DNA of 64,000 nt from assembly GCA_947460595.1 (NCBI GenBank), contig CANHGS010000016.1, positions 1 through 64,000 of the forward strand, given 5' to 3'. Source of the stretch: Bacteroidota bacterium (GTDB lineage Bacteria > Bacteroidota > Bacteroidia > Chitinophagales > Chitinophagaceae). This document shows, piece by piece, positions 5,049 to 64,000 of this stretch (within the stretch, counting starts at the first letter, position 1; every line of letters starts with the position of its first letter). The notes beneath the pieces were generated by a model. It was not told the origin of the DNA. It did not search any database and worked only from the letters and a program-made list of their open reading frames with translations. The position numbers and the translations under genes are program-made.

Positions 5049-5081
5049 AATTTAATCATTTAATTGTTATACTTGATTATC

Positions 5082-8123: not shown

Positions 8124-8234
8124 ACAGCAATCGTTTTGGTTTGGTTTGGTTGTTAGCAATTTGGTAATCGCCCTAGCAAAGTATATAAATAAATACTGCC
8201 ACTAGACTAACCAAGAACCTGATACTGATGAATA

Positions 8235-8273
8235 CCTATCGAAAACGATTCCGCAAACATTATCGATAGATAG
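8235..8273. promoter_or_regulatory. Composite LacI-like operator, site A (upstream of susC-1)
   Basis: CCTATCGAAAACGATTCCGCAAACATTATCGATAGATAG; 7-bp arms CTATCGA (8236-8242) and TCGATAG (8263-8269) separated by exactly 20 bp; same architecture as sites B and C. Confidence 0.8.
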
Positions 8274-11198: not shown

Positions 11199-11231
11199 TT
11201 TAAAATAATTACATGAATTTTGATTGTCAAT

Positions 11232-13688: not shown

Positions 13689-13742
13689 ATAAAAATTTAC
13701 ATTTTTGGGTATGGTTATTAGGAATTTACAACATGGATTGAA

Positions 13743-25113: not shown

Positions 25114-26196
25114 TTATGGTTTTTTGAGAGGAATTTGCACATTATAAGAATGACCAAGTGTTTCATTAACCGCACAAAGCAAGGCAACCAGCTTCCCGTT
25201 TTCAAAAAAAAGCTGGGGTCTTTCCAACGCTTCTAACTGTTTAATACTCCCATCAGCCCATTTAATTTTCAAATCTGAAACTAGTGGGTGTTTTGCTAAT
25301 TTCCAATCCAATCCGTCTAGTGAATAAAACAACACTAAACTTCTTCCTGCATTTGTAAAAGCGCCTTTCATATCTTTCACAATAGCGTAATAACAATTAT
25401 CCTGATACCAAACAAATGGGTCCTCGGCTGGGAAGTCAACATTTTCAACTGTGAAAATGGGATTGTTTTGTTTTACAAATGGGCCTTCTGGTTTATTAGC
25501 TATTGCAGTTAAATGCACAACTGGGCCTCCAAAGGGTTGTGGTTTTTTTCGTGCAACTGCTTTATATACCATAAGGAAACGTCCGTCAGGCATTTGAGTT
25601 ACAGATGGATTTGCCACCATTTGTGCATCGTAGGCTGTAGTATCGGAAGAAATGTCAAGGATGGGTTTATCAAATCGTTTCCATGGACCATTTGGATTAT
25701 CAGCAATGACTACTCCAATTCGTTGATTGTTCCTATGTGTCCAATTCAATTGTGGGCTGGTAATTTTACCATCCCCATAATTACCAGCATAATACAAATA
25801 ATATTTACCATTAAAAAAATGAACTGTAGGATTGTGCGAATACATCCCATCCCAAAAATTAGGACCACGATGAGGGATTACCACATCTTTAAATACAAAA
25901 GGCCCAAAAGGAGAATCAGCAATAGCATGAGCTACTTCAGAACTAGTTACCCAAGCTGCCATACCTAAGTTCCTTGGCCATCTAGAGTAAAAAAGGTGGT
26001 ACTTTTTATCTAAATGAGATTTAACTAGTGTACCACACCATATATAGGAACTATCATTAATGAATTTGGCTGTTAAGGGAACCGGCTGAATCATTTTTCC
26101 CAAATTCAATTCTCCCGCAGCTGAATGCTCTTTTTGAGAAAAAAGTACTTTTGAACAGAGTAAACAAATTATAAAGAGTAATTGATTTTTTCTCAT
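25114..26196 (-). CDS. Secreted GH43/GH117-like beta-propeller glycosidase (paralog 3 of 3), first gene of operon B
   Basis: YIWCGTLVKSHLDKKYHLFYSRWP...FWDGMYSHNPTVHFFNGKYYLYYAGN...AEDPFVWYQDNCYYAIVKD. Confidence 0.75.
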   Translation of the reverse strand: MRKNQLLFIICLLCSKVLFSQKEHSAAGELNLGKMIQPVPLTAKFINDSSYIWCGTLVKSHLDKKYHLFYSRWPRNLGMAAWVTSSEVAHAIADSPFGPFVFKDVVIPHRGPNFWDGMYSHNPTVHFFNGKYYLYYAGNYGDGKITSPQLNWTHRNNQRIGVVIADNPNGPWKRFDKPILDISSDTTAYDAQMVANPSVTQMPDGRFLMVYKAVARKKPQPFGGPVVHLTAIANKPEGPFVKQNNPIFTVENVDFPAEDPFVWYQDNCYYAIVKDMKGAFTNAGRSLVLFYSLDGLDWKLAKHPLVSDLKIKWADGSIKQLEALERPQLFFENGKLVALLCAVNETLGHSYNVQIPLKKP

Positions 26197-26315: not shown

Positions 26316-26351
26316 CCTATCGATATCATAGCTGGAAACGTTATCGATAGG
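26316..26351. promoter_or_regulatory. Composite LacI-like operator, site B (upstream of operon B)
   Basis: CCTATCGATATCATAGCTGGAAACGTTATCGATAGG; CTATCGA (26317-26323) N20 TCGATAG (26344-26350); about 120 bp upstream of ATG at 26196. Confidence 0.8.
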
Positions 26352-38755: not shown

Positions 38756-38809
38756 TTTCAGTCTTATAAAAACCATAAATAATGCTTTAATGATAAATTA
38801 AGTATGGAG

Positions 38810-47089: not shown

Positions 47090-49993
47090 TCATATTTTTA
47101 ACAGTTTTAAAGAAACCGGACCAATTAAACCAGATACTAGTAACGGATCGCTTTTGCGATAATAATTCCATGTACTAAAAGTATATCTACCGCTAGAAGG
47201 CCGCTGTTTACCATGCAAAAACCATTCAGGATACTTAACCAATTCTCTACCTCTGAATAAACTATCTGAACTAAAACTCTCTTTGGTCCATTCCATATCT
47301 GCTGGTTCTTGTTCATCTCCAATCATTCGATTAGCCCACAAATTGGTTACATCAATTCTAATTTCATTTTTTCCTGTCTTTAAATACTTGGTGATATCTA
47401 AAACAAACGGGTATTTCCATAAATTAGCTACTTCCTTTCCATTCACAAATACATCAGCGAAATTTTTCACCATCCCAAGATCTAGGATCATTTTTGAAGA
47501 TTCGTTAACCTGAGATTCCAAAAGAGAAAATGTTTTTGAATAGGAAGCAGTTCCAGAAAAATAATTAATTGCTTTAGAGTCAAAATTTGTCCATGACTTC
47601 AAATAGGGTATGACAAACTTTGAAGGTGTCTTCTGAACACCATGAAAATCTATCTCCCATTCTTTACTTAAATCAATAGCAGTATTTATAGTACTATTTA
47701 AAGACTCATTAAAAGCAACTTTTTTATTAATATCTCCATTCTTAAAAACAACAAACCATGATTGCAGGGATTCAAATGGAATACTGACCAAAGTTCTATT
47801 CCCCTCTTGTTTCCATTTCACATTATGAAATATTTCACCAGTTTCTGCATTCCAGATTTCAGGTATTTTGCCACCTACTCTGAAACCAATAGTGAAAGTT
47901 TGTGCTTTCTTTTCTTGATTTGCAACAAAATACAAATCATCCTTTCCAATAGATCTATGAATCCAAGCAATCTTAGCTTGACTAGAAGACTCTACTAATT
48001 CAAAGTCCTTTTCAACCTTCATCTCTTGTAATACCTCTTCCGGTTTCAATCCAAGAAATATCATACCCTTCCCATATCTTCTAAATTTATTTTGTATTCC
48101 ATCAAGATCTCCCCATACTTTATTTCCAATTTTAATTACTTGTTTATCATGTTCTGGAAAATTCTCAAGTCCTGGAGTTCTTAGAGGTTTAGGACCTAAG
48201 ACAATAGCACCTTCCTCAACCAATTGTTGTATCTTTTTTGCCAATGCAAGAGACATAATAGAAGTATTTGTCAAAACTAACACCCTATATTGCATGCCAC
48301 TTGGCAGACACAGTTTACCATCCTTTACATACATCAATTTGATTAAGCTCTCTTCATCAATTGCATCTCCATTGTAACCTAGAGGCACACTAAATCCTCT
48401 TTGCTTTTTAGGATACAGATAACAAATGTCTCCAACAAACTGTCCCTGCCTCAACATATATTGACACCGAGATATATAAGTATTCCAGGACAAGGATTGT
48501 TTCCAATAAGTATTTGCTGGGTTAATTTGTAAGCCATAACTACCTCCAATCATACCAGGTATGGCTTTATCTAACCAGGGCTGATGTGGTTGAATATGCA
48601 ACTCCATCCTGTTAATCCCTTTGGAAAAGGCAAGATCAGCCTCAGCTTTTAAGTCTTCTGGAGAGATACTCCAATTTCCGTGTTGGGGCTCGGCGGTAAA
48701 AGATTCTGCAGAAACAATTTTTTTACCACTAATATGAGCTGCCGATGCAGCCAAATTGAGCGTCCACCATCCATAGACTTTATTATTATGCCAAAATTCC
48801 CCCGCTGGCATTTCATTTTTTACAGCATTCTCAACAAGATTCATTGGAGCATTATAAGATTGAACCTCCAATTCAACTCCGGGATATTGATGTACTAAAT
48901 TCCCTAAAGCTCCATAATACTGTTCCATAAACAATTCAGAGATGGTTTTCTCAAAATCATAAATGAAACGCTCTGACATTTCTTTATTTTCAATAATAAT
49001 GCTTGGGCTAAGCGACTTACTTCTTGGATCATAATTTTCCACTTGAACACCAGTAATTACTGGCAACCAGATGATTGGATCATATCCCCTTCTTTTTATA
49101 AACTGGTCCCTAAATTGGTGATTCCAATTTTGCAATCCAGCTTCATAACTATCTACTGCAATATATTTTAAAGACTTTCCAGCCAATTTACCAGCATCTT
49201 TTAAAATCTTACCCGGATAATTATTAAAATGAATTTTCAAAGCATTGCTATCTAATTTATCACATTCTATTCCTGCTACATCAAGTGCTGCTTGAACCGG
49301 CATTTTTCCAGTAGTGGTATGTCCATATCTAATAATTTTCCAATTCCCAATAGGAACTTGCCATTTCAAAATATCGTCATTTTTGATAAAAGAGGAAATG
49401 TCTTTTACATTGTCTTTTAAAACAACACCTGACTCTTCTAATCTAATAGCAATTACAGCAACATCTTTGTAATAATTCCATTTGGAATCTACTTTGGGTT
49501 TATTCAATTTGATATCAGTAAAACTTCCTCCAACAATAGTTGTATCTATCCAAACCAATTTTTGCATAGATTGCACTGGCTGAATCCATGTTCCCCCACT
49601 AGATGACCAACCAAGAGAATTGTGAAAAGTAGCTTCTAATCCAAGCCTATCTGCTTCTCTAATTGAAAACTGTATGAGATCCCACCATTCCTTGCTTAAT
49701 GTTGCAACATTTGGTAATACATTTTGAGGATCATTAATTATATCCTGAACACCAGGCTTTAATTGAAAATGATAAAAACCCCCAATCCCAGCTTTCTTCA
49801 TTGCTTCCAAATCTCTAGTAATCCCTTCCTTGCTAATTTGTCTTCCATACCATCTCCACCAAACTGTTGGTCTTGTATTGGTTGGAGGAACTTTGAAGGA
49901 TTGCTCTATAGACTGATTAATTTGAGCAACTAAAGCCACACTGTATCCAATTTGGAATAATATAAACAGTGATAGAATCTTATTTATTTTCAT
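47090..49993 (-). CDS. GH106 family alpha-L-rhamnosidase
   Basis: TNTRPTVWWRWYGRQISKEGITRDLEAMKKAGIGGFYHFQL; LEVQSYNAPMNLVENAVKNEMPAGEFW; C-terminal GDEQEPADMEWTKESF...GLIGPVSLKLLK. Likely start MKINKIL at 49993. Confidence 0.9.
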   Translation of the reverse strand: MKINKILSLFILFQIGYSVALVAQINQSIEQSFKVPPTNTRPTVWWRWYGRQISKEGITRDLEAMKKAGIGGFYHFQLKPGVQDIINDPQNVLPNVATLSKEWWDLIQFSIREADRLGLEATFHNSLGWSSSGGTWIQPVQSMQKLVWIDTTIVGGSFTDIKLNKPKVDSKWNYYKDVAVIAIRLEESGVVLKDNVKDISSFIKNDDILKWQVPIGNWKIIRYGHTTTGKMPVQAALDVAGIECDKLDSNALKIHFNNYPGKILKDAGKLAGKSLKYIAVDSYEAGLQNWNHQFRDQFIKRRGYDPIIWLPVITGVQVENYDPRSKSLSPSIIIENKEMSERFIYDFEKTISELFMEQYYGALGNLVHQYPGVELEVQSYNAPMNLVENAVKNEMPAGEFWHNNKVYGWWTLNLAASAAHISGKKIVSAESFTAEPQHGNWSISPEDLKAEADLAFSKGINRMELHIQPHQPWLDKAIPGMIGGSYGLQINPANTYWKQSLSWNTYISRCQYMLRQGQFVGDICYLYPKKQRGFSVPLGYNGDAIDEESLIKLMYVKDGKLCLPSGMQYRVLVLTNTSIMSLALAKKIQQLVEEGAIVLGPKPLRTPGLENFPEHDKQVIKIGNKVWGDLDGIQNKFRRYGKGMIFLGLKPEEVLQEMKVEKDFELVESSSQAKIAWIHRSIGKDDLYFVANQEKKAQTFTIGFRVGGKIPEIWNAETGEIFHNVKWKQEGNRTLVSIPFESLQSWFVVFKNGDINKKVAFNESLNSTINTAIDLSKEWEIDFHGVQKTPSKFVIPYLKSWTNFDSKAINYFSGTASYSKTFSLLESQVNESSKMILDLGMVKNFADVFVNGKEVANLWKYPFVLDITKYLKTGKNEIRIDVTNLWANRMIGDEQEPADMEWTKESFSSDSLFRGRELVKYPEWFLHGKQRPSSGRYTFSTWNYYRKSDPLLVSGLIGPVSLKLLKI

Positions 49994-50000
49994 AATCACT

Positions 50001-51695
50001 TTATTCTGCACGATATAAGATGAACTCTCCAATTGAAGGAGCTTCTTTTTGGTTTTCTAATAACAACCTAAATTTTTGCGCTTTGATTACTTTGAAGGAC
50101 TCAGTGCTTCCAGTACCATCCGTAGAAAGTTTGTTAATAGACTTCCATGAACCAGATTCAAAATATTGTAATTCATGTGTTTGTTTAATACCTGACCATG
50201 GATGCCATGGTTCTACTAATGACATGGCATTGATAGCATATTCAGTTCCAAAATCAATTTCCAAACTAGCATTTGTATTTCCCTTAGCAGCCTGCCATTT
50301 TGAATTTGGATTGCCATCATTCAAATTTTTGGTATTAGAAGTGCTGTCAGTACTGCTAGCAACTATTAATTTTCCTGATGTAGGCAATGGCAATACTTTA
50401 GGCTCTCCCTCAAATTCTATAGCAATTACTGAACTCATTTTATCTGGGGCATAACTAGGCAATTGTATTTGACTACTAGATTTAGAGGGAACTATATTCA
50501 GATTCTTGCTCTTATCCGCTAACAAATAGGCTTTCTTAATCTTATTGCCCAATGGAACATTTAAAAGCCCATTTGTTGGCCAATCAAAGACATGTAAATA
50601 AATCACTTGACCTTTTCTTGTTGCCCTTCCCCATGATAAGAATGGAAATGGACTAGCATTTGTACCATAGATTGATTCACCATTTAATTGAAGCCATTCT
50701 CCAATTTCTAATAGATTCTGTTGACATACAACGGGAATCACACCATAGGCATTGGGTCCAACATTCAAAAGAAAGTTGCCTCCTTTACTAACAATGTCTA
50801 CCAATTTTTGTGTAAGCTCTTTGGTGGTCTTCCATCTATCATCCCAGGCATTAAAACCCCAATGTCCATTCATAGTCATACATACTTCCCAATTCCTACC
50901 AGGAAACCCAGTTGCAGGAATAAACTGTTCTGGAGTTTCTAAATCACCTCCCATACCAGCTCCTAGCCTATTATTAGTTATTAATTGTGGATATTGCTTG
51001 GCTACTTCCGCTAATTTCAAGGTCATGCTTTTAGTCATATTGGTTGGTGTATCCCACCATAAAATGGCTACATCTCCATAATTTGATAAAATTTCCTTTA
51101 CCTGTGGCAATGCAATTTCATCAATGTATTTCTCCATGCTACCCACATGTGAACTATCCCAATCTTTATTTCCTGAAACCGCTCCACCAGGATGATACCA
51201 ATCTTGGGCTTGAGAATAATAAAATCCAAGTTTCATATCGTATTTCCTACAAGCTTCCGCCAATTCTTTTAATACATCTCTTTTAAATGGTGTTGCATCA
51301 ACTATATTGTAGGTAGATGCCTTAGAACCAAACATGGCAAACCCATCATGATGCTTGCTAGTAATGACCATATACTTTTGACCTGCTGCTTTTGCCAACT
51401 TCACCCATTCTTCTGCATTAAATTGTGTTGGATTAAATTCCTTGGCAAGAGCTGAATAAGTAGTTCTTGGAATCTTTGCTGTATGCATGATCCATTCTCC
51501 ATAAGTAGTTGTATTGCCCCACTTACCAGCAGGAACAGAATAAATACCCCAATGAATAAACATGCCAAACTTAGCATCTCTCCACCACTGCATCTTTGGA
51601 TCATTCATTTTTGAAGCAGCATTCCCCTCCCCATTTTGAGAAAAAGAAACTATTGCTAATACAAAACCCAAAACTGTAAATGCATATTTTTTCAT
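50001..51695 (-). CDS. GH29 alpha-L-fucosidase with C-terminal F5/8 type C domain
   Basis: WWRDAKFGMFIHWGIYSVPAGKW; VITSKHHDGFAMFGSKASTYNIVDATPFKRDV; VAILWWDTPTNM; C-terminal discoidin-like ASLEIDFGTEYAINAMSLVEPWHPWSG. Confidence 0.92.
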   Translation of the reverse strand: MKKYAFTVLGFVLAIVSFSQNGEGNAASKMNDPKMQWWRDAKFGMFIHWGIYSVPAGKWGNTTTYGEWIMHTAKIPRTTYSALAKEFNPTQFNAEEWVKLAKAAGQKYMVITSKHHDGFAMFGSKASTYNIVDATPFKRDVLKELAEACRKYDMKLGFYYSQAQDWYHPGGAVSGNKDWDSSHVGSMEKYIDEIALPQVKEILSNYGDVAILWWDTPTNMTKSMTLKLAEVAKQYPQLITNNRLGAGMGGDLETPEQFIPATGFPGRNWEVCMTMNGHWGFNAWDDRWKTTKELTQKLVDIVSKGGNFLLNVGPNAYGVIPVVCQQNLLEIGEWLQLNGESIYGTNASPFPFLSWGRATRKGQVIYLHVFDWPTNGLLNVPLGNKIKKAYLLADKSKNLNIVPSKSSSQIQLPSYAPDKMSSVIAIEFEGEPKVLPLPTSGKLIVASSTDSTSNTKNLNDGNPNSKWQAAKGNTNASLEIDFGTEYAINAMSLVEPWHPWSGIKQTHELQYFESGSWKSINKLSTDGTGSTESFKVIKAQKFRLLLENQKEAPSIGEFILYRAE

Positions 51696-51704
51696 AAATC
51701 AATT

Positions 51705-53492
51705 TTAAAATAACATCCTATTATAAATTCGCAAATGTTGAATTGAACCTGTAAAATTTTTAAGCTTTGTATTTTCTTTATCGGTAGTACCTACTTGCAT
51801 TACTACATCGCCAACGGCTTCAAAATCTTTTCCTACTGTACCTACACGCCCAGCGGCAGTTGCATCTTTAGTTGAATGCTTAATACCTTTTTGTTGCTTA
51901 ACCAACTGTCCTGCTTTATAAATTAATGCCGTTCCATTTTGGTAAACACAGGTTAGATGTACCATTTTATCTTGTTCATATATTTTATCTACTTCTACAT
52001 CTGTGTGGCTTTCAATACTACCAATCCTGAAAATAAGTCCCCCATCTTTTTTCAGCTGAATAGACCAACCTGAATTACCTGTTTTAGGAATTCTAGCAAT
52101 TGGAGTCATATTGGCTAGTTCAGATGCCTGAATATCCATATCAATGGTAATTGTATCTCCATAACCTACATTCCTATCAAAAAAGTAAAATTTTTGATCT
52201 CCTATAAACCGAATGGGTTCTGATTCTGCCAATTGCCAAATGGGTGCCTTAAGATTTGCAAATGGTTTTGCTCTAATGATTTCATTCCCCTTACCCAAAG
52301 GTTTCATAAATATAACATCGTCTACTTCCATCCATTGATCTGGCCCACCTTCTGAAGCAATGCTGATGGTTATCTGATGATTGGTAACTTTAATGGGAGG
52401 AAGCTGAACCCTAGTCCATTTATCTGATGCAGGCACTTTCATTATCAAATCTTTTCCACCAAAATCAGATGCCTTAATATAAGCAGATGTTTGCCCACCG
52501 GAACTTCTAACCATGGCAGAAAGTTGGTACTCCCCATTCATGATAAATTCTAATTGCTGTTTTATACCTGCATTGTAAGGGGCAGGTGCTCCAATGCGCA
52601 ATTTGTAATTTTCTAAATAGGCATCCCCTTCTATTAATTGAACGGCTCCATTAGTTCCCTCATTATTCCAACAAAGAGGTTTTTGTGAATTGTATTTATT
52701 TTGATTAAATTCAAAATTGCCATTAGGAAGAATGGTGATTCCTGGATAGTCTTTTGCATAGTATCTGAAATACTTAAAAACAGACTCAGCGGGTTGTAGC
52801 GTACTATCTACTTTACCTACTCCATTTAATGCGGTTAACCAGACAGCTTGGTGCGCGTTTAGCTGATCCCATTCTGCTTTTGCTACAATATTGCCATTAT
52901 CATAGAAAATGACACCGTCTGGGGTAAACTCATAAGCATCTAAAAACCACCCATCTTTGTCAAACTTGAAAGGAACTTGTGCTCTGTGTGGCCAAGGCCT
53001 TCTATCTATTCCTTTAAATGGCAAATCAAAATAGAGGTTATTAGTTGCAACCCAAGTTTTGGAATCAATTTCGTAGGAATCAATTTCAAAAATATTATTA
53101 TTAGGATTTTTTCCGCCTCTCTGCCAAAAGGATGTATGAACACCATGTCCCTCCATGAATGGCTTTGACAAACACTCATAATATCCGTAACCAAAATTAT
53201 GATTACTGATTACACCGCCACCGGTATTCTCCCATTTTCCGTCAATCTTTTCGTGATTTAGAACAACATGTAAAGCACCATCTTTTACAAATACATTTTC
53301 TTTTCTATTCAATCCATCCATATAACCAAACCCTGTTCTTCTATCAATTCTATAACGCCAATCTTGCTCATTTAAACGATTACCCTTAAAACTCTCGTCA
53401 AACAGAAGTGTATATCCTTTATTTGCAGGAGGTTGAGCAAGGACAGTCTGAAAAACTAAAACTAGAAAAATGATACATTGAATAAACTTCAT
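51705..53492 (-). CDS. GH16 endo-glycosidase with CBM4/9-like and C-terminal LamG-like domains
   Basis: GYTLLFDESFKGNRLNEQDWRYR; NNNIFEIDSYEIDSKTW carries the GH16 ExDxxE motif; middle jelly-roll (ILPNGNFEFNQ...WTRVQLPPIKV), C-terminal LamG-like (MVHLTCVYQNGTALIYKAGQLV...GSIQHLRIYNRML). Confidence 0.8.
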   Translation of the reverse strand: MKFIQCIIFLVLVFQTVLAQPPANKGYTLLFDESFKGNRLNEQDWRYRIDRRTGFGYMDGLNRKENVFVKDGALHVVLNHEKIDGKWENTGGGVISNHNFGYGYYECLSKPFMEGHGVHTSFWQRGGKNPNNNIFEIDSYEIDSKTWVATNNLYFDLPFKGIDRRPWPHRAQVPFKFDKDGWFLDAYEFTPDGVIFYDNGNIVAKAEWDQLNAHQAVWLTALNGVGKVDSTLQPAESVFKYFRYYAKDYPGITILPNGNFEFNQNKYNSQKPLCWNNEGTNGAVQLIEGDAYLENYKLRIGAPAPYNAGIKQQLEFIMNGEYQLSAMVRSSGGQTSAYIKASDFGGKDLIMKVPASDKWTRVQLPPIKVTNHQITISIASEGGPDQWMEVDDVIFMKPLGKGNEIIRAKPFANLKAPIWQLAESEPIRFIGDQKFYFFDRNVGYGDTITIDMDIQASELANMTPIARIPKTGNSGWSIQLKKDGGLIFRIGSIESHTDVEVDKIYEQDKMVHLTCVYQNGTALIYKAGQLVKQQKGIKHSTKDATAAGRVGTVGKDFEAVGDVVMQVGTTDKENTKLKNFTGSIQHLRIYNRMLF

Positions 53493-53494
53493 GT

Positions 53495-54346
53495 CTATTG
53501 ACTTTTATGATGGATGATTTGAAAGATTTTCTTTGCCGATTTTTCGCCTATATCGTCAAGACCTTCTTGGCTGTAATGAACAAAATCACGCATCCATCCC
53601 CTTTCAAAAAAAAGATTGGTTGCTGAATACACTATAAAAACATTGTCCAATTCCTTTGAAACTGATTCCTGTATGAATCTAACTGTATCATTTCCGTCTT
53701 GCTCACGACCGGACTGATACCCCGTTTCAACAATGAAGAATAGAGTGGTTTTGCCAAATTTTTGTCTAAATGAATGAATGACCCAAATTAAAGCTGCTTT
53801 ATATTCAATTGCGCTTAATTTTCCCGCATGAATGGCATTGGCATCACGTTCACCTTGCATCCAAATAATTCCAGAAAGATTAACCTTACTAGCTGATACA
53901 GCCTTGGTTGTTTTCTCAATGGCTGACCAAATTAAATTCCCACTACTATCCCAAGTACCATAATTATCCAATTCTGCTTTAACACTACAGGAACTTCCAC
54001 TTCTTGCTGCATGAACAACAATCACGTCTTCCTGTTGCAACAAAGCAAAGGTTTTGGTAAAAGAGGGAAGTATGGTTCCTCTTCCTCGCACAGATTCTAG
54101 ACTTTTCCAATTTTGTCCAGCAGGATCCCTTAGTGGCTTAATTTGATCTAATAGAATATCATATTCGAATGCCTTATTGGTTAGATGTTTATTACTCAGA
54201 ACACTATCACCTAGGCCACCTGCATTACTTTGTCCTGCCAACAAAAACAACTTTTGCGCATGTAATGGATTATGCAGAAAAAGCATCAACCCTAAAAAAG
54301 AAAATGGCAAAAACCAGATTTTGGGATAAAGTTCTCTCATTATCAT
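53495..54346 (-). CDS. SGNH/SASA-type carbohydrate O-acetylesterase
   Basis: KLFLLAGQSNAGGLGDSVL; SGIIWMQGERDAN; RDFVHYSQEGLDDIGEKSA. ORF track start 54406 overlaps the MFS gene; MIMREL at 54346 removes the overlap. Confidence 0.85.
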   Translation of the reverse strand: MIMRELYPKIWFLPFSFLGLMLFLHNPLHAQKLFLLAGQSNAGGLGDSVLSNKHLTNKAFEYDILLDQIKPLRDPAGQNWKSLESVRGRGTILPSFTKTFALLQQEDVIVVHAARSGSSCSVKAELDNYGTWDSSGNLIWSAIEKTTKAVSASKVNLSGIIWMQGERDANAIHAGKLSAIEYKAALIWVIHSFRQKFGKTTLFFIVETGYQSGREQDGNDTVRFIQESVSKELDNVFIVYSATNLFFERGWMRDFVHYSQEGLDDIGEKSAKKIFQIIHHKSQ

Positions 54347-54374
54347 GTGAGTGATTATTTTATTGAAATGGTTT

Positions 54375-55754
54375 TTAACTTTTGGGCAATTTTTGTATCC
54401 CCCCAAATTTCAATACCAACCAACCTATTGGATGTAAAAAAGCCATCATAAAAAACCACCAAGCATAGCCGTGACCCTGCACCACATCTAATATTGGATT
54501 AAGTAAAACATGTAACCCCTTATCTAAGAATCCGGAAACTTTTGTAGATGCTCCTGATACCATTGTTGCCACTATCGTATTCATCATGATTCCACCAATG
54601 GTACTTCCTGCTGCAACAATACTAAACACAGTTCCTAGCGAATGTTTTGGAACTACGTCTAATACCAAGGATGTAATGTTGATTAACCATGCCAATGAAG
54701 CCATTACTGCACAAACAGTAATAGTCATGGCCATATTCAAACCTGTTACCTGGCTTATCAAAGGAGAGAGTGGCATTATGAGCGCACAACCTAACATAAC
54801 AGATAACCTGCTTTTTACTGGTGCTACTCCTTTTTTAACAAGCCTACCGGATAGCCAGCCCCCCAACAAACTTCCCACTCCCGCCGCGGCATAGATAACC
54901 CATGTAATTTTTAATTGCTCTTGAGAAAGATGACGATCAGAACTTAAATATTTGGGAAACCAAAACTGATAGAAATACCATACCGGGTCAGTCACCAAGC
55001 GGCCGATGAGTAATAACCAAGTTCCTTTAAATAATAATACCTGTTTCCACGACCATGTATTTTGTTTATCTGCAGTTGTTGCTTCTTCAGCAAGGTCATC
55101 ACTAATTAACTGAAGTTCTGAATCAGTAATTAATTTAGATTTTTGTGGTAGCCTGTAAAAACTTAACCATGGTATAAGCCAAAGCAATCCAACTAAACCA
55201 GTTATTATAAAAGCCAATCGCCATCCAGTTCCCTGTCCTAACCAACCAACTAAAACTGGTAAAGTAGCGGCATAGTTATAGGTTGCCAGTGGGATTACAA
55301 TATAAGGCGCTATAGTTGCACCAATAGTAGCTCCCATAGTGTAAAGACCAATGGCAAATGCCCTTTCTTTTTTAGGGAACCATTCAGAAACGGCTTTTGA
55401 TGCCGCAGGCCAAATGCCTGCTTCACCTAAACCCAATGCAAATCTATACGCACTCAAAGAGGTAATGCTATTGGCTGCTGCAGTAAAAGCATTGGCAATG
55501 GACCACCAGGCTACAAAAACAAACATTCCTGCTCTTGTTCCAATTTTATCAGCGATGCGCCCACTCAATAAATAGGCAATGGTATATGCAACAAGGAAAA
55601 TATTTACAATGTTAGCATAGTCCTGTTCGTTCATATTCAAATCCTTTTGAATAGTAGGAGCTAAAGCCGACAAGGTTTGCCTATCTACATAGTTAAGCAC
55701 TGCCGCAACAAAAAGCAACCCCACAATCCACCAGCGCATTCCTTTTATTTTCAT
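54375..55754 (-). CDS. MFS transporter, anion:cation symporter (hexuronate/ExuT-like) family
   Basis: RWWIVGLLFVAAVLNYVDRQTLSALAPTIQKDLNM; ALGLGEAGIWPAASKAVSEWFPKKERAFAIGLYTMGATIGATIAP. Confidence 0.88.
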   Translation of the reverse strand: MKIKGMRWWIVGLLFVAAVLNYVDRQTLSALAPTIQKDLNMNEQDYANIVNIFLVAYTIAYLLSGRIADKIGTRAGMFVFVAWWSIANAFTAAANSITSLSAYRFALGLGEAGIWPAASKAVSEWFPKKERAFAIGLYTMGATIGATIAPYIVIPLATYNYAATLPVLVGWLGQGTGWRLAFIITGLVGLLWLIPWLSFYRLPQKSKLITDSELQLISDDLAEEATTADKQNTWSWKQVLLFKGTWLLLIGRLVTDPVWYFYQFWFPKYLSSDRHLSQEQLKITWVIYAAAGVGSLLGGWLSGRLVKKGVAPVKSRLSVMLGCALIMPLSPLISQVTGLNMAMTITVCAVMASLAWLINITSLVLDVVPKHSLGTVFSIVAAGSTIGGIMMNTIVATMVSGASTKVSGFLDKGLHVLLNPILDVVQGHGYAWWFFMMAFLHPIGWLVLKFGGIQKLPKS

Positions 55755-55782
55755 TGTATTTTTTTGTGCTTCTTAACAAAAA

Positions 55783-58065
55783 TTAATTTCCATAGCACCT
55801 TACAGCGAAGAGTGATGCCGGGATATTTTTGGAAGGATGATTCAATTTAATCATCAGACTGTTGGTAGATACAGGTTCAGATAATATAATTCGATTGATT
55901 GTTTCATAATTATTTTTCTTCTGATATAATAACTTACCACCATGGTCAAATATGGAATAGTCAGTAACACAGAAAGGCATATCTCTTTCTGGATGACCCA
56001 TTAAAACCGATTCCATTGGATGATCAAAGTCGGTATCAAAACATAAATCAATAGAATTGATTGTTTTAGTTTCTTCCCAGCTGATTATTAGGGAAGGATT
56101 GGGATCACTAAAATCTGAGACCCATGCATTAGGCTGAATGGTGGGTCTTTCCATTCCATTTAAGAGATTATCCACATTGAAACAATCTAGTGGTTCAGAA
56201 ATCTTCAATGAAATATTTTGTCCCTCTGGTCTCCTTTTAGGACACCAAAACTCAAAAGAATCAACGCCAATTTCTTCAGTAGGAGTTTGTTTTCCAAAAT
56301 TTGAAACAGCCGGATTTACATGATTGAATAATGACAAAATACCGGTTATCCTTTGGTTTGAAAAATGCAAGCCAATTTTAGGGTTTTTTAGAAACACTAG
56401 ATAAGCATAACAACTATTACTAATGGTTGTATTAAAGTCTATAGAAATACAGTTTCTCCCCTTTTGGATTGGCAGTGTTTTTGATGCAATAATGTTTTCA
56501 GGAGTGTAATTAGAATTACTCCTACTTATTCTCAATTCCACATTTAATTCTGTAACATCATCTCCCATGGCATGTACAATAAATGTAGGAACCTTACCGG
56601 CATTTAATGGAACCATTTGTGCAACAGACCATTCCAAAGTCTTTACAATATCAGATTCTATAAGTTCAGACAGTTTCAAAGTGCTACTCACACGCAATGT
56701 TGCTTGTTTTACTAAGTCCTGTTCGTCCATACGTTGAATTCCTGGAATATAGTGACCTTCTCTAAGCAGAACTTGTTGTAATTCATGCATTTTCTCATCT
56801 TTCCGTAAATCTCTTGGCATAGTTTGATGATCAATACATAAAGAAGCTGCAGTTCCAACAGCTTGACCTATGGCGCCAGAAGTAGCCATTACCCTAGTAG
56901 AAGCAAATGCCACATGTGAAGCACTGATTATTCTACCTGCGAGGAATAAATTTTCAATATTCTTACTGTATAAACACCTATAAGGAATTTGATAAATCCC
57001 TTTGCTATGCCATTGATTACAACCAGGTTTTTCACTAAACACACCATCTGCGGGATGCAAGTCAATACTCCATCCTCCATAAGCAACCGCATCATCATGT
57101 GTTCTTTGCTCAACTATATCCTGCTGAATCAACATATAATCACCTTCAAACCTTCTACTCTCTCTTTTACCAGGAATAGAACCAACCCATTCAAGTGTTA
57201 GATTTTCTGCTTCAGGAAATTCGCCAGAGTTTTTAATATGATTCCAAACGCCATAAACAACTTTCCACAATTCCCATTTAATCTTTTCTGTATCATGCAC
57301 CGTATCTAACCTGCCACCATACTCTATCCACCATAATTTACAACCAAAGTCCTTTGAATTAAAGGAGCGAAATCTAGGTATTGTAGTTATGTCTTTTAAT
57401 GCATAGGACGGTGGAATATATTTTACAGGTTTACCTGTATCTTTTGAGTAGAAATACAAAGAATGACCTAATAATTCTCCATAAGCTTTAGTTGGTGCAA
57501 ATAATTCCCCAAATTCATCTTTTGATTCAGCCCCCATTCTAAATGCAGCGCCAGATAGAAAGCCAAGAATCCCATCTCCTGAAGCATCAATATATATTGG
57601 AGCTTTTATTATGTAAGAGGTCTGATTTTGACTACAAAAACCAAATATAGAATCAATACTATCGGCAGTCTTTTTATTCAATTGATAAATGGCAGTATTT
57701 AGCAACAATTCTATACCCTTCTCTTGAACTACTTTATCCAATAATATACTATCAAAAATCACTGGATTCCCTTCTGGATTTCGATGCATATTTTCAACCA
57801 AAATTTCATCCATTACCCCGCCTTCCCTGGACCATCGATTATTATTACCCATATGAGAAGTTGCACCTAGAATCCATAGTCTTACCTCGCTTGATGCATT
57901 ACCTCCAAGAACAGGACGGTCTTGCACCAAAGTCACTTTTTTACCTAATCTTGCAGCAGCAATGGCAGCACATACACCTGATATACCACCACCAACTACG
58001 GCAATATCTGAATTAATAGAAATGGTAGTTAAATCCCTTTGATCTATACCCTGGCTTAAAATCAT
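55783..58065 (-). CDS. FAD-dependent oxidoreductase with C-terminal discoidin-like domain, no signal peptide apparent
   Basis: SDIAVVGGGISGVCAAIAAARLGKKVTLVQDRPVLGGNASSEVRLW dinucleotide-binding motif; RIISASHVAFASTRVMATSGAIGQAVGTAASLC; C-terminus PNPSLIISWEETKTINSIDLCFDTDFDHPMES...SLMIKLNHPSKNIPASLFAVRCYG resembles F5/8 type C. Confidence 0.85.
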   Translation of the reverse strand: MILSQGIDQRDLTTISINSDIAVVGGGISGVCAAIAAARLGKKVTLVQDRPVLGGNASSEVRLWILGATSHMGNNNRWSREGGVMDEILVENMHRNPEGNPVIFDSILLDKVVQEKGIELLLNTAIYQLNKKTADSIDSIFGFCSQNQTSYIIKAPIYIDASGDGILGFLSGAAFRMGAESKDEFGELFAPTKAYGELLGHSLYFYSKDTGKPVKYIPPSYALKDITTIPRFRSFNSKDFGCKLWWIEYGGRLDTVHDTEKIKWELWKVVYGVWNHIKNSGEFPEAENLTLEWVGSIPGKRESRRFEGDYMLIQQDIVEQRTHDDAVAYGGWSIDLHPADGVFSEKPGCNQWHSKGIYQIPYRCLYSKNIENLFLAGRIISASHVAFASTRVMATSGAIGQAVGTAASLCIDHQTMPRDLRKDEKMHELQQVLLREGHYIPGIQRMDEQDLVKQATLRVSSTLKLSELIESDIVKTLEWSVAQMVPLNAGKVPTFIVHAMGDDVTELNVELRISRSNSNYTPENIIASKTLPIQKGRNCISIDFNTTISNSCYAYLVFLKNPKIGLHFSNQRITGILSLFNHVNPAVSNFGKQTPTEEIGVDSFEFWCPKRRPEGQNISLKISEPLDCFNVDNLLNGMERPTIQPNAWVSDFSDPNPSLIISWEETKTINSIDLCFDTDFDHPMESVLMGHPERDMPFCVTDYSIFDHGGKLLYQKKNNYETINRIILSEPVSTNSLMIKLNHPSKNIPASLFAVRCYGN

Positions 58066-58130: not shown

Positions 58131-60230
58131 TTAATAACCTGGATTTTGTACCAGATTTGGATTATTCAACATATCAGAATATGGAATTGGTAAAAACATA
58201 ATATTAGGAGTAATATATGCATAATCAGAAATTGGTTTTGCATATTGTGAAGCAAGGTGATTCTTAATATTGTCTACCATAATATTCCATCTTTTCAAGT
58301 CATACCAGCGATGTCCTTCAAAAAGCAATTCCCTTCTTCTTTCCAACCTGACTTTTGCTCTTAAGTCTGCTTGATTTGAATAAGTATAATCTGGTAATGC
58401 TTGAACTGCAGGAGTTCCAATTGTGCCACCATGAGCTCTTCTAATGGCGTTGATTTGAGCCAAAGCTATATCCATATTTGCTGATCCTCCAATTTCCATC
58501 AAAGCTTCGGCATACATTAATAAAACATCTGAATAACGAATCCAATGGAAATCATCTGCATTATCATTAAAAGTTGCAGTATTTACTTGATCATTATATT
58601 TGACAATTTGGCCAAAATTGGCAATATTGATTGAGACATTCCTTCTAGGATCTGCAAATTCAAATATGCCATTAGGATTGGGGGCAATAGTAAAAATTTG
58701 ACCAGGCTGGAATCCAGCAACTGAAGCGCTATAGGTAGAATTACTTTGTACCCAGGTAAATGCTGGAGCAGTTGCAGTATTCCTAATAGAGACATAAAAT
58801 GTAGGTGTTCTAATCCCAACAGCAGTTGCTGGAGTATTGACTGCTGGTGATATTTGGTCATATAACATTTCCATTTTCCCATCAGCTTCATACAACTTTA
58901 CTTGAAAATTGATGTTTTTGGAAGCTGTTGTACCAGCTCTCCAAGTCCAGTTTTTCCATTCCACAGTCAAAACCCTATTAGGTGCTGTTCCAATAGTACT
59001 ATAAGTTGCCACACCTCCTGTTCCATTCAAATTATCCATTAATGGACCTACAACAGGATCAGTTACGGTACTAATATTGGGTGCGGTATTTACCCTATTT
59101 ATGAAGCTAATAAATCCATTACTGCTCATGTAAAAATTGTTATAATTTACTCCTCCATAATTGAAATTAAATCCAATAGGTAGCGCTCCAGAAATAGCAT
59201 CATCTGTTTGAACAGCAGCAACATTCGTTCCGGTTGTTAATGGTACATAAGTAGTAGTACCAGCAGTAAAATTATAATTAATAAAATCAGTGGAGGGTTT
59301 TACATAACCAAATTGTACATAGGTCCACTTCATTCTAGTAAATCCTGCTAATTCGGCAGCTAATCCTGCTGTACCCCTAGAGTAAAAAATACGCTCTCTA
59401 TCTGCAGCTTTTGTAGCAACTGCAGCACTAAAGATATTGGCATAATTGGTATTCAAATCAACATTATATAAAGTCTTATTATCAACTATTTCCTTTAGTT
59501 TATCAGCAGCTAGTTGAAATTTTGAAGCGTCATTAATTGGAAACCCAGCCATTGTTAAATAGACCTTTCCAAGCAAAGATTTTGCAGCAACTTTTGTTGC
59601 TCTACCACCATTTTGAACATTTCCATAATCGTAAAAATCATCTAAATTGGTTTCCGCTTCTTTTAAATCTTCAATAATAGTATTATAAACTTCTTTAGAT
59701 GGTGCTCTAGCTGGTAAAAGATTGTTTTTAGAAATATCTGCCGGCTCCAACATTAAAGGAACGTCACCATATAATTGAACCAATCTGAAATAGTTAAATG
59801 CTCTTAAAAATTTTGCTTCAGCCCTGACTCTCTTAATAATTGCAGGCTTTATTTTGGTACTATCATAAACATATAAAAGTACATTATTGGCCCTATCTAT
59901 GGCCCTATAAGCATTGGTCCAAACTTGTTTTGGATAGGAATGTTGTGAGTTATAAACAACGTTTTCTAATTCCAATCGCTCACCTAAAGCAGTTCCTGTT
60001 AATGCACCATCGTCTGAAATAATTTCAACCATATAAATAGGAGGAATACCATTACTTACGTCTACACGCATTGCCTGATAAACTCCATTCACTGCTGCTA
60101 TTGCATCTGCATCAGTTTGATAAAAATTGCTATTGGTTATTAAACCTTTTGGGTCTTCTGTTAAAAATTTTTTACAAGAACTGGTAAGTAATACCAATAC
60201 AAGCAAGAAATATATATTTGATTTTTTCAT
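58131..60230 (-). CDS. susD: SusD/RagB family lipoprotein with inserted nidogen-like beta-sandwich domain
   Basis: 699 aa; LTSSCKKFLTEDPKG lipobox and SusD N-domain; AEAKFLRAFNYFRLVQLYGDVPL; NLVQNPGY C-terminus; roughly 200 aa insert at aa 318-518. Confidence 0.93.
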   Translation of the reverse strand: MKKSNIYFLLVLVLLTSSCKKFLTEDPKGLITNSNFYQTDADAIAAVNGVYQAMRVDVSNGIPPIYMVEIISDDGALTGTALGERLELENVVYNSQHSYPKQVWTNAYRAIDRANNVLLYVYDSTKIKPAIIKRVRAEAKFLRAFNYFRLVQLYGDVPLMLEPADISKNNLLPARAPSKEVYNTIIEDLKEAETNLDDFYDYGNVQNGGRATKVAAKSLLGKVYLTMAGFPINDASKFQLAADKLKEIVDNKTLYNVDLNTNYANIFSAAVATKAADRERIFYSRGTAGLAAELAGFTRMKWTYVQFGYVKPSTDFINYNFTAGTTTYVPLTTGTNVAAVQTDDAISGALPIGFNFNYGGVNYNNFYMSSNGFISFINRVNTAPNISTVTDPVVGPLMDNLNGTGGVATYSTIGTAPNRVLTVEWKNWTWRAGTTASKNINFQVKLYEADGKMEMLYDQISPAVNTPATAVGIRTPTFYVSIRNTATAPAFTWVQSNSTYSASVAGFQPGQIFTIAPNPNGIFEFADPRRNVSINIANFGQIVKYNDQVNTATFNDNADDFHWIRYSDVLLMYAEALMEIGGSANMDIALAQINAIRRAHGGTIGTPAVQALPDYTYSNQADLRAKVRLERRRELLFEGHRWYDLKRWNIMVDNIKNHLASQYAKPISDYAYITPNIMFLPIPYSDMLNNPNLVQNPGY

Positions 60231-60248: not shown

Positions 60249-63200
60249 TTATAAGTTAACAGTAAAACCAAAACGATAAACCCTTCCAATTGGAGACGTA
60301 CCGTCATCAACACCACGGGCAAGACCGCCTCTTGTATTTACTTCTGGATTATATCCTGAATATTTGGTTATAGTAAATGGATTTTGAACGTTTACATAAG
60401 CCCTCAATGAAGTCAATTTTAATTTTTTAACAATCTTACCAGATAAGTTGTAAGCCAATGTTATATCTCTACAACGTAGATATGATCCATCTTCAATAAA
60501 ATAATCAGTTGATTCTCTGGCGTCTAAAATAGTACCTGCCACAGGAACCTGGGTAGTTAAATTTCTAGCCCTAATTTGATCAATTAATTTAGGATCAGTA
60601 TCTGGATATATCATTTGATAACGATTATCAAATACGGCTTTTCTTGTGTTTACTAATCCACTCATACTTCCAGTTGACATATCAAACATGTTAAAAATCT
60701 GATTCCCAACTGAATAGCTAAAGAAGGTGGTAAGATCAAATTGTTTGAAAGACAATGAGGAATTAAATCCACCAAAATATTTAGGTAATGCAGAACCTAT
60801 ATATGTTCTATCTGCGTCATTTAACAACCCATCGTTATTAATATCAGCAAAACGCCTAGTTCCCTCTTTTACACCAACTTGAAAAGTTGCAGGCTTGTTT
60901 AATATAGAAGTATCATTCCAAATACCAATTGACCTATATCCAAAGAATTGTCCAACAGGTTGCCCTGGAGTAACGCGGAATAAGAAGGCACTTCCTACCA
61001 CGTTTTCAACGTCTACATACTCGCCAGCAGCACCAGAAAGTTTTTCAACATTGTTTCTATTGAAAGCAATATTGAAATCAACATTCCAACGTAGATTTTT
61101 ATTATTGATAATTTTAGCACCCAGTGCAAATTCTAATCCTTCATTGGTAATAGAAGCTACATTTTTAGTAATACTAGTGTAGCCAGTTGTTAGTGGAGGA
61201 GTTATATTGAATAATAAGCCATCAGTGTATTTACGATAAGCATCAATAGCTAAGGTTAATCTATTATTTAAAAAGCCCAAGTCTAGACCAATATTTGTAG
61301 AAGATGTTTTCTCCCATTGCAAATCGGGATTAGCCAACCTACTTGGAGCAAATGCAATACTATTAGCGCCACCAAAAATCATATTGGTAACACTTAATGT
61401 AGATAGCGTTGAATAAGAATTAATTGCCTGATTCCCTACCAATCCCCAGCTAGCTCTGAACTTTAATTCATTCACATAATATTTCAACTTGCTAAACCAT
61501 TGCTCTTGATCAACCCTCCAAGCTGTTCCAATAGAAGGAAAGAATCCAAACTGTTTGTCTTCAGCAAATTTTGATGTTCCATCATACCTGCCAGATACAC
61601 TCAAATAGTATTTACCTCCGTAATTATAAGAGCCTCTAAATATGCTAGAAACCAATTGGCTGGAATTATAAGAGCTATTGGGTACACCAGGGGTAGATCC
61701 GGATTGGATAGAGTTAAATGAAGTAATATCTGAAGTAAAACCTTGTGAGGAAGCTGTTTGTGTTTTAGAAATAAATTTCTCTGCTGATGCTACTGCTACA
61801 GCGCTTAAGTTATGATTCTTACCAATCTTTTTATTATAATTCAATTGCAGCTGATATAGTGCACTGCTATTTTGTGAATTTCCTAAACTGGCTACTCCCC
61901 TTTGAGTGCTAAATGCCAAAAGCAAAGCAGTTGGAACGTAGTTTTCCAAAAGTGCATTAAATGTACTTAAACCAATGGTACCAGTTAGTTTCAAGGATTT
62001 GCTAATATCATATGCCAATGCAACATTTGCCAACATCTGGGTAGAAGTATTAACATTCTGAACCCCTTTGGCTGAAGAATAAATCAATGGGTTATTGGTT
62101 GTGGAAGCTTGGCTAATTACAGTGGCTAGTGCAAATCTTGAATTATAGAACAATGGACCTTGTGCAGGATCTTCATAATAAGTGTTACCATAATGGAAAG
62201 TGCTCAATTTATTAAAACTACCATCAGGGTTAATCAATGGGGAAGATGGAGCCCAACTTAATGCTCTATTGGTTAAGGTACCTGAAGGTTGTCCACTCCT
62301 TACGGCACTTGTGATATTTACACTTGCCGTTAATGTTACTTTGGGTAGAATATTGCCTTCATAATTGAATTTTCCATTATAACGCTTCAAATAAGAATTA
62401 GGAATAATTCCCTGTTGGTTATAGTATTGACCAGACAAGTAAAATTTAGATATTTTGTCCCCTCCAGAAACACTTAACGAAAGATCTGTTGTTGGAGCCG
62501 ATTGTTGTAAACTTGCCTGATGATTATAATCTTTTAAACTATCAATCTCAGATGGCAAATAAGGCTGTAAAGTGGTTGCAGTATAAGTACCAATTAAGGT
62601 TCTATATCTCCATGCTTCATTTACAAGTGTTGCGTAGTCGTTAGATTTTAAAACATCTACTTGCTTTAAAGGTTTGGCAAATGATTGGTTTAGATTCACT
62701 GATACTTTAACCTTTCCTGCTTTTCCAGATTTTGTTGTTATTAATACTACTCCATTTGAACCGCGTGAACCATATATGGCAGTTGCAGCAGCATCTTTTA
62801 AAATATCAATGCTTTCAATGTCATTCGGGTTTAACATAGAAAGCGGATTAGACGTACCTAAACCACCAAGGTTGGCATTTCCGTTATTTAAGTTCAGATT
62901 GGGAGTATTTAAAGGAATCCCATCTACTACATACAAAGGTTGGGATGAAAAGCTCAATGAACTAATTCCCCTAATCTCAATACTAATACCACCACCGGGC
63001 TCTGAACTATTTTCCATCACATTTACACCCGCGGCTCGTCCGCCAATCAATTGTTGCACGTTAGAATAACCTCCTTCCGTATTGTTTTTGGTACTTACTT
63101 GAGATATAGAAGTTGTTACTTCACTTTTCCGCTTTCTTTCATAACCAACCACAATTACTTCATCAATTTCCTTAACAACGGAACTCATAGTTAATTCCTT

Positions 63201-63473
63201 AGAAATCCCCTTAACAGGAAGTTCCAAAGGTTGATAGTTGATGGCAGAAATAACCAATACATCAGTTGGATTTACTTTTAAAGTAAATTGACCTTGTGCG
63301 TTGGTAGAAGTACCTCTTTTAGTACCTTTTACTAAAATAGATGCACCTTGAATTACGGTACCAGAGTCCGATTTAATGGTGGAACTAATAGTTGCGCTTT
63401 GCGCGTAGAGCATCATTGGCAAGAATAGAAGCACCATTCCTGTAATAAGCCCCATCAATGAGAACTTTTTCAT
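60249..63473 (-). CDS. susC: SusC/RagA family TonB-linked outer membrane transporter
   Basis: 1074 aa; QGASILVKGTKRGTSTNAQGQFTLKV, DEVIVVGYERKRKSEVTTSISQV, ISIEIRGISSLSFSSQPLYVVDGIPL, DAAATAIYGSRGSNGVVLITTKSG. Confidence 0.95.
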   Translation of the reverse strand: MKKFSLMGLITGMVLLFLPMMLYAQSATISSTIKSDSGTVIQGASILVKGTKRGTSTNAQGQFTLKVNPTDVLVISAINYQPLELPVKGISKELTMSSVVKEIDEVIVVGYERKRKSEVTTSISQVSTKNNTEGGYSNVQQLIGGRAAGVNVMENSSEPGGGISIEIRGISSLSFSSQPLYVVDGIPLNTPNLNLNNGNANLGGLGTSNPLSMLNPNDIESIDILKDAAATAIYGSRGSNGVVLITTKSGKAGKVKVSVNLNQSFAKPLKQVDVLKSNDYATLVNEAWRYRTLIGTYTATTLQPYLPSEIDSLKDYNHQASLQQSAPTTDLSLSVSGGDKISKFYLSGQYYNQQGIIPNSYLKRYNGKFNYEGNILPKVTLTASVNITSAVRSGQPSGTLTNRALSWAPSSPLINPDGSFNKLSTFHYGNTYYEDPAQGPLFYNSRFALATVISQASTTNNPLIYSSAKGVQNVNTSTQMLANVALAYDISKSLKLTGTIGLSTFNALLENYVPTALLLAFSTQRGVASLGNSQNSSALYQLQLNYNKKIGKNHNLSAVAVASAEKFISKTQTASSQGFTSDITSFNSIQSGSTPGVPNSSYNSSQLVSSIFRGSYNYGGKYYLSVSGRYDGTSKFAEDKQFGFFPSIGTAWRVDQEQWFSKLKYYVNELKFRASWGLVGNQAINSYSTLSTLSVTNMIFGGANSIAFAPSRLANPDLQWEKTSSTNIGLDLGFLNNRLTLAIDAYRKYTDGLLFNITPPLTTGYTSITKNVASITNEGLEFALGAKIINNKNLRWNVDFNIAFNRNNVEKLSGAAGEYVDVENVVGSAFLFRVTPGQPVGQFFGYRSIGIWNDTSILNKPATFQVGVKEGTRRFADINNDGLLNDADRTYIGSALPKYFGGFNSSLSFKQFDLTTFFSYSVGNQIFNMFDMSTGSMSGLVNTRKAVFDNRYQMIYPDTDPKLIDQIRARNLTTQVPVAGTILDARESTDYFIEDGSYLRCRDITLAYNLSGKIVKKLKLTSLRAYVNVQNPFTITKYSGYNPEVNTRGGLARGVDDGTSPIGRVYRFGFTVNL

Positions 63474-63612: not shown

Positions 63613-63651
63613 CCTATCGAAATCAATTGCGGAAACGTTTTCGATAGATAG
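63613..63651. promoter_or_regulatory. Composite LacI-like operator, site C (between susC-2 and the regulator gene)
   Basis: CCTATCGAAATCAATTGCGGAAACGTTTTCGATAGATAG; CTATCGA (63614-63620) N20 TCGATAG (63641-63647). Confidence 0.82.
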
Positions 63652-63665
63652 ACAATTTTTAACAA

Positions 63666-64000
63666 ATGCCTAGAGTAAGTTGTCCAAAATGTAATAAAGT
63701 AGAAACAATTCAGAAATCTGGAATTGTCAGAAACAAGCAACGATTTTATTGCAAGGATTGTAATTATAACTTTACCATCCATCATGAAAGCAATAAACAA
63801 AAATCAAAAAGCAAAATCAGCAATTCATTACAAACCTCTTTACAAGATATAGCCAAAGCAATTGGCATTTCTGTTTCCACAGTTTCAAGAGCATTACACA
63901 ATCATCCAGACATTAGCAGCAAAACAAAAACGGCTGTTCAGAAATTAGCCAATGAATTATCCTATCAACCAAATGCATTAGCTCAAAGTTTGGTTACAAA
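63666..64000 (+). CDS. Zinc-ribbon / LacI family hybrid transcriptional regulator, C-terminus truncated by window edge
   Basis: Translated by hand from ATG 63666: MPRVSCPKCNKVETIQKSGIVRNKQRFYCKDCNYNFTIHHESNKQKSKSKISNSLQTSLQDIAKAIGISVSTVSRALHNHPDISSKTKTAVQKLANELSYQPNALAQSLVT. CxxC-x19-CxxC, then canonical LacI HTH and hinge start. Absent from ORF track because no stop falls inside the window. Confidence 0.92.
   Translation, partial: MPRVSCPKCNKVETIQKSGIVRNKQRFYCKDCNYNFTIHHESNKQKSKSKISNSLQTSLQDIAKAIGISVSTVSRALHNHPDISSKTKTAVQKLANELSYQPNALAQSLVT

Follow-up and report, generated by a model that had tools for sequence, protein, structure and literature searches.

Regulators of the LacI family are among the best studied switches and are usually regarded as proteins composed of a helix-turn-helix (HTH) domain plus a sensor, with operators of 16–22 bp. 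The bacterial repressor NrdR is composed of a zinc ribbon and an ATP-cone sensor and contains no HTH. A length of 16–22 nt was reported for the operators of the LacI family, and most LacI-family transcription factors have a site in their own promoter and sugar genes as neighbours (PMC4052901). The InsA protein of IS1 contains a zinc finger and an HTH, both of which are required for binding to the IS1 ends, and acts as an autorepressor (PMC12428005). No paper on a fusion of a LacI regulator with a zinc ribbon was found in the open-licence literature, where most subscription journals are missing.

The fusion gene described here was located at the end of a 64,000-nucleotide stretch of contig CANHGS010000016.1 from a bacterium of the family Chitinophagaceae (phylum Bacteroidota), hereafter referred to as the window. 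The gene starts with an ATG at position 63666 of the forward strand and crosses the window end. When the frame was followed beyond position 64000, it formed a single intact ORF of 389 residues, whose 3′ part reached codon 389 and a stop ending at position 64835 of the contig (G000:C16). The encoded protein was composed of a zinc ribbon (residues 1–37, with the ribbon itself at 6–37; 63666..63776, +) with cysteines at positions 6, 9, 29, and 32, a tether of variable length and sequence (residues 38–57; 63777..63836, +), a LacI-family HTH (residues 58–103; 63837..63974, +), and a LacI hinge and sensor, of which only the beginning (63975..64000, +) was contained in the window. The ribbon was supported by the profiles NF050000 and NF048018, the strands of an AF2 model, and invariant residues, and the tether by AF2 pLDDT and substitution rate. 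The HTH was assigned by Pfam (PF00356, E=3.4e-15), and the hinge and sensor by Pfam and by PDB fold matches. The sensor domain comprised residues 114–386, with Pfam matches to Peripla_BP_1 (residues 114–375, E=2e-29) and Peripla_BP_3 (residues 226–386).

The preliminary description of this DNA had reported two cysteine pairs followed, after a polar stretch, by a normal LacI HTH. Both were recovered, the former as Cys6-Pro-Lys-Cys9 and Cys29-Lys-Asp-Cys32 with 19 residues between them, read from the ATG at 63666, and the latter at residues 58–103 (Pfam LacI, E=3e-15). The extension past position 64000, proposed there as a check, gave one ORF in which the LacI sensor was complete. No ATG, GTG, or TTG was present among codons 2–108 in a start-codon scan, and an in-frame stop was located two codons 5′ of the ATG. 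Because start codons were absent between codons 1 and 109, the HTH can be translated solely together with the ribbon. An internal start yielding a normal LacI protein was thus ruled out for the window gene, and with it the objection that a start near residue 55 gives the sole translated form. A frameshift or assembly error between the two domains was ruled out by the single ORF and by the identical architecture of more than 20 other genes.

The protein scored 56.0 bits with PF00356 (cut-off 27) and 103.3 bits with the Peripla_BP sensor (cut-off 22.2), as expected for the LacI/GalR family. However, the HTH of this family is located at the very N-terminus, whereas here it began at residue 58, behind the ribbon and the tether, and the protein was therefore classed as a LacI/GalR variant and not as a typical member. 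Compared with LacI/GalR regulators such as CcpA, PurR, and RbsR, the fusion shared the HTH and sugar-binding sensor, CpG-centred operator cores, a site in its own promoter, and sugar-gene neighbours, but contained 57 extra N-terminal residues including the zinc ribbon. The AF2 model without the ribbon had the LacI fold, and its best PDB matches included CcpA, PurR, and RbsR. NrdR, set beside the fusion by description and not by sequence, likewise combines a zinc ribbon with a ligand-sensing domain, but its sensor is different and an HTH is lacking.

When residues 1–55 were compared with zinc-ribbon families, two curated profiles were matched over their cut-offs, NF050000 (IS1_IS1595_Zn) with 33.6 bits (cut-off 28) and NF048018 with 31.3 bits (cut-off 27), and all four cysteines were in place; the profile failure that the preliminary description had named as a refutation was thus not observed. 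The Pfam ribbon models InsA and IS1595 also matched, below their gathering scores, and NF050000 scores fell under the 28-bit cut-off in some fusion relatives (26.6 in L024 and 20.0 in L026). Besides the four cysteines, residues Gly19, Arg22, Gln25, Arg26, and Phe36 were invariant in an alignment of 21–22 fusion proteins. In five of the closest pairs, the ribbon had a dN of 0 at dS values of 0.56–3.1, the linker being altered in four of the five, and the tether was the fastest-changing region in most pairs compared. These rates point to very strong purifying selection on the ribbon. In the AF2 model, the ribbon was three-stranded (residues 15–21, 24–29, and 34–37) with pLDDT values of 75–84, and residues 41–55 had values below 50. 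The latter are predicted to form a disordered tether, with the ribbon folding separately. The four invariant cysteines and the predicted ribbon fold suggest that the ribbon binds zinc. A PDB search with the ribbon model gave weak matches throughout, the best of which was a Dof–DNA complex (E=0.25). At the level of sequence, the protein is an IS1 InsA-like ribbon fused to a PUL-linked LacI regulator.

Zinc ribbons can release their metal upon oxidation, and two CxxC pairs made of four invariant cysteines might also serve to sense metal or redox state and so gate the LacI switch. This role is highly improbable, because the non-cysteine residues that the fusions share with the InsA-like proteins (Gly19, Gln25, Arg26, and Phe36) were just as invariant as the cysteines, a Pfam survey of the neighbouring genes showed none for a response to metal or redox stress, and the operators were extended at the place where a second DNA reader would act.

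The fusion was distributed across several lineages of the Bacteroidota. A scan of one genome per species gave nine full-length ribbon relatives with 58–98% identity from Chitinophagaceae, Chitinophagales, and less precisely named Bacteroidota bins. The survey suggested in the preliminary description found the fusion, with all four cysteines invariant, in nine genera of Chitinophagaceae (11 of 249 genomes of the family sample). Two more families of the class, f9 and f10, which do not belong to the order, were represented among the 6 positive genomes of 395 in the class sample. The phylum sample contained it in 6 of 396 genomes, and all these counts are lower bounds, first-look candidates having been scored in part. 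A true fusion, annotated merely as a substrate-binding domain-containing protein, was also present on a plasmid of Hymenobacter tibetensis (Cytophagales). Candidates beyond the Bacteroidota, on Paracoccus and Pantoea plasmids, were rejected as annotated LacI genes behind unrelated sequence.

On a tree built on the HTH plus sensor, the presence of the ribbon was explained by two changes (bootstrap range 2–2). A ribbonless clade (L070–L077) was nested among the ribbon proteins, and a clade of ribbon proteins only was therefore rejected (AU p=0.0016). One gain and one nested loss of the ribbon would be the simplest history; two independent gains are possible, the union of the two ribbon clades being weakly supported (84/55). 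Most genes of the nested ribbonless clade (L070, L071, and L073–L077) begin with an MKRHQVTI-like sequence, and no convincing ribbon remnants were found 5′ of the genes of this clade. In clade II, genes L023, L024, L025, and L040 had an in-frame Met directly before the HTH (KKHMTTI..., QQSMPTI..., RPHMTTI...; e.g. KKHMTTIADIAQAL), which may be the fossil start of an ancestral LacI. Its distribution marks the fusion as an old architecture, conserved within a LacI subfamily of one Bacteroidota class, and not as a local capture.

The origin of the ribbon was examined through its relatives outside the fusions. No second NF050000 ribbon was found by a profile search of the window's genome, and this result, together with the conservation of the fusion across families, ruled out a recent IS insertion. 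The protein scored 38.9 bits with the IS1 transposase profile NF033558 (cut-off 100), and the match was confined to residues 6–88. The fusion resembled IS1 InsA in the class of its ribbon, which was over the cut-off of the IS1/IS1595 profile NF050000, and in the position of the ribbon N-terminal to an HTH, but it had a LacI-type HTH and a sugar sensor, and no transposase part, element, or terminal inverted repeats. The nearest ribbons outside the fusions were those of stand-alone Bacteroidia proteins of about 140 aa (L043–L061 and L132–L135), with BLOSUM scores against the fusion ribbon of 96–118, compared with 43–78 for transposase-like proteins, which disfavours a direct transposase origin. 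These ribbon-plus-HTH proteins matched the InsA part of the IS1 transposase with 75–80 bits, the remainder being missing, and all non-fusion matches to the ribbon profile in the family sample were ORFs of 140–174 aa. Unlike the fusion, the stand-alone proteins had an InsA-like HTH, a short C-terminal ...ITELGDKFMVIKWERF tail, and no sensor. Because the fusion ribbon was closer to these host proteins than to transposases, its donor is more likely to have been a domesticated InsA-like regulator than a transposase. The preliminary description had proposed that a captured or domesticated transposase module was joined to a PUL regulator; the InsA-like ribbon on a PUL-linked LacI regulator stands, but a local capture is not supported, and a transposase is the less likely donor.

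The conserved upstream element of the stand-alone genes differed from that of the fusion and contained direct repeats (TGCTAANTNGGTATA), and a conserved TATCG was looked for 5′ of these genes and not found. The element was a conserved tandem one in the 120 bp upstream, roughly TTGCTAANTNGGTATATT-n-ATGCTAATTTGGTATA, and it suggests that the stand-alone proteins are autoregulated, domesticated InsA-like regulators. In one further genome (G671), the NF050000 ribbon occurred in 12 places, most of them in ORFs of 130–160 aa; these copies may represent an element that is still active or a regulator family that has expanded.

A candidate operator, CTATCGAAATCAATTGCGGAAACGTTTTCGATAG, was located at 63614..63647, upstream of the fusion gene, from whose ATG it was separated by 18 bp; its distance to the start of SusC was 140 bp. 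It was defined by a phylogenetic footprint (L010–L019 and L028–L031) and by conservation over 18 sites. The 34-bp site had the form CTATCG-N22-CGATAG, with LacI cores at positions 11–12 and 23–24, spaced by 12 bp. In the window site, the CpG of the strong core was at 63636–63637 and the weak core at 63624–63625, between the outer CTATCG and CGATAG. Operators of the family are palindromes with a central CG, and their reported length is 16–22 nt (PMC4052901). Here, CpG-centred cores were present, but the conserved unit was 34 bp, containing two cores and outer flanks. This geometry was common to the upstream regions of fusion genes in near relatives and in the f9 and f10 genomes and preceded most fusion genes; upstream of L030, the 34-bp palindrome was nearly perfect. 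Within the 18 collected sites, Ade3 and Thy32 were invariant, and Thy2 and Ade33 were conserved to the same degree as the cores. These conserved positions, 2–3 and 32–33, lie outside the 16-bp LacI unit.

Because the 18 sites were partly picked by eye, a flank-blind search, in which the two LacI cores alone were scored and the TAT/ATA flanks were ignored, served as the unbiased test. Sites were found at 17 of 20 ribbon loci, with at least four of the six flank bases in 15 and all six in 11. The median was three of six at 15 ribbonless LacI sites with comparable cores (p=1e-4, uncorrected for relatedness), although one ribbonless site (L096) had five. Part of the clade II loci had no recognisable site. 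In the flank-scoring run, L024, L026, and L040 had none within 300 bp, the L040 site being located farther upstream, and the match at L027 had no flanks. The 200 bp upstream of the Hymenobacter plasmid fusion contained no site. The nested ribbonless clade kept the GGGAA half-site and had paired GGGAACATTCCC-like sites (GGGAA(C/T)(A/G)TTCCC-like), 19–20 bp apart and without TATC flanks, whereas ribbon relatives with the GGGAACG half-site had TA(T/C)CGGGAACG with cores 12 bp apart. In these comparisons, the TAT/ATA flanks were associated with the ribbon, being mostly missing at ribbonless LacI sites and absent in the ribbon-loss clade. The main weakness of this association is that it represents few evolutionary events, one clade and one nested loss, however many sequences are counted.

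Two CpG-centred cores 12 bp apart were also observed upstream of the LacI genes L003, L081, L083, L085, L087, L096, L107, and L111. The paired cores of many Bacteroidota LacI genes are spaced as if two dimers were bound side by side. Because the 12-bp spacing occurs with ribbonless LacI regulators too, the flanks alone, and not the pairing, track the ribbon.

Protein contacts are a frequent role of zinc ribbons. The ribbon could accordingly be a protein–protein module that bridges two LacI dimers on tandem cores or touches RNA polymerase, with the outer TATC/GATA read by a modified LacI HTH or an N-terminal arm. A core spacing of 12 bp implies that two dimers sit next to each other, perhaps in need of bridging; the spacing is 19–20 bp in the ribbon-loss clade, and the PDB matches of the ribbon model, all weak, included polymerase subunits. 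This role is nevertheless doubtful, since the 12-bp spacing is shared with other ribbonless LacI regulators and the ribbon belongs to the class of InsA, a protein that needs its zinc finger to bind DNA (PMC12428005). The GGGAA half-site was moreover common to ribbon and ribbonless relatives, so that the specificity of the HTH is similar while the flank differs. It is very unlikely that the outer TATC/GATA are the site of another regulator or a promoter element that flanks the LacI cores by chance, with the ribbon uninvolved. The right flank GATAGATA is indeed near the start codon in the near clade, but the flanks were symmetric, and their distance from the cores did not vary, either among several families or among three window promoters in different positions. 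The very strong purifying selection on the ribbon also argues against its being uninvolved.

Divergent from the regulator, a SusC-like TonB-dependent transporter (60249..63473, −; Pfam Plug and TonB_dep_Rec) was followed by a SusD-like glycan-binding protein (58131..60230, −; Pfam SusD_RagB, E=4e-34), with FAD oxidoreductase, MFS, SASA esterase, LamG, GH29, and GH106 genes next in line (47090..58065, −; Pfam). A second SusC-like transporter (5082..8159, −; Pfam Plug, E=5e-20) and a second SusD (3348–5048, −; SusD_RagB, E=1e-50) were located at the other end of the window. The second candidate operator, CTATCGAAAACGATTCCGCAAACATTATCGATAG (8236..8269), was upstream of this pair (8159..3348, −) and was supported by a pattern match and by orthologous promoters. 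The third, CTATCGATATCATAGCTGGAAACGTTATCGATAG (26317..26350), was supported by a pattern match and by conservation over the 18 sites, and was upstream of an ORF (26196..25114, −) that heads a run of enzyme genes (GH43, GH2, DUF5703, and GH29). The window contained three pattern matches, compared with 0.58 expected even when one mismatch was allowed, and no shuffle gave three. Exact TATCG-N22-CGATA occurred five times in the 3.66-Mb genome; the three occurrences in the window were all in promoter gaps with LacI cores, and the two outside were without LacI cores. The genome-wide count of this pattern was rejected as a regulon marker in other genomes, where it was close to a reversed-pattern control, and the LacI core must therefore form part of the search pattern.

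Two of the window operators recurred at orthologous promoters in relatives (G089 and G046). In G089, of the same genus, the SusC orthologue was preceded by an identical copy of the inner 32 bp of the 8236..8269 site, and these 32 bp also occurred 5′ of the orthologous SusC gene of G046. A search of the G089 stretch gave no match to the 26317..26350 operator. In the window, and likewise in each of the eight near relatives with enough upstream DNA (L011–L017 and L019), the fusion gene was divergent from SusC/SusD or from a gene for a FAD oxidoreductase. As in a PUL regulator, the gene was located beside susC/susD and glycan enzymes, with operator copies at the cluster promoters, from which its regulation of the cluster is predicted. 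The cluster enzymes (GH29, GH95, GH106, GH43, and GH2) point to a glycan rich in fucose, rhamnose, and xylose or arabinose as the target. The cluster also contained an AraC-type (HTH_18) regulator (42093–42956, +) and large ORFs of 369–861 aa without a Pfam match at 1e-15 (10089–16205 and 36191–38776), which are possibly new enzymes.

Taken together, the protein is rather probably an autoregulating LacI-family PUL regulator whose ribbons read the outer operator bases. It would control its own gene and the surrounding fucose/rhamnose/xylose-glycan utilization cluster, and its sensor domain would bind a sugar freed from the glycan and thereby relieve repression, like other LacI regulators. The HTHs would occupy the LacI cores 12 bp apart within the 34-bp site, and the ribbons would touch the outer CTA/TAG ends, giving a longer recognition sequence and a higher specificity or affinity. 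The reading of the flanks by the ribbon would have a precedent in the zinc finger and HTH of InsA on the IS1 ends. The preliminary description had proposed a two-module DNA reader, for which the extended operator flanks are indirect evidence; we infer the direct contact of ribbon and flank, as well as repression rather than activation and a sugar ligand. The InsA-type zinc ribbon, with its flexible tether, would have been acquired by an ancestor from which several Bacteroidia lineages descend. There is about an even chance that a LacI subfamily gained this ribbon as a second sequence-reading head, that its operators co-evolved into composite sites of 34 bp, in which two LacI cores lie between two outer ribbon boxes, and that one branch later lost the ribbon and the boxes together.

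The fusion is a variant of the LacI family, and the 34-bp operator is what is new here. Operator searches restricted to 14–24 bp (as in PMC4052901) would truncate such sites. The proposed reading yields a predicted regulon for a large locus devoted to fucose/rhamnose glycans. If true, it would show clearly how a bacterial repressor can become more specific when a domain is added, and the ribbonless sister group would be a natural control.
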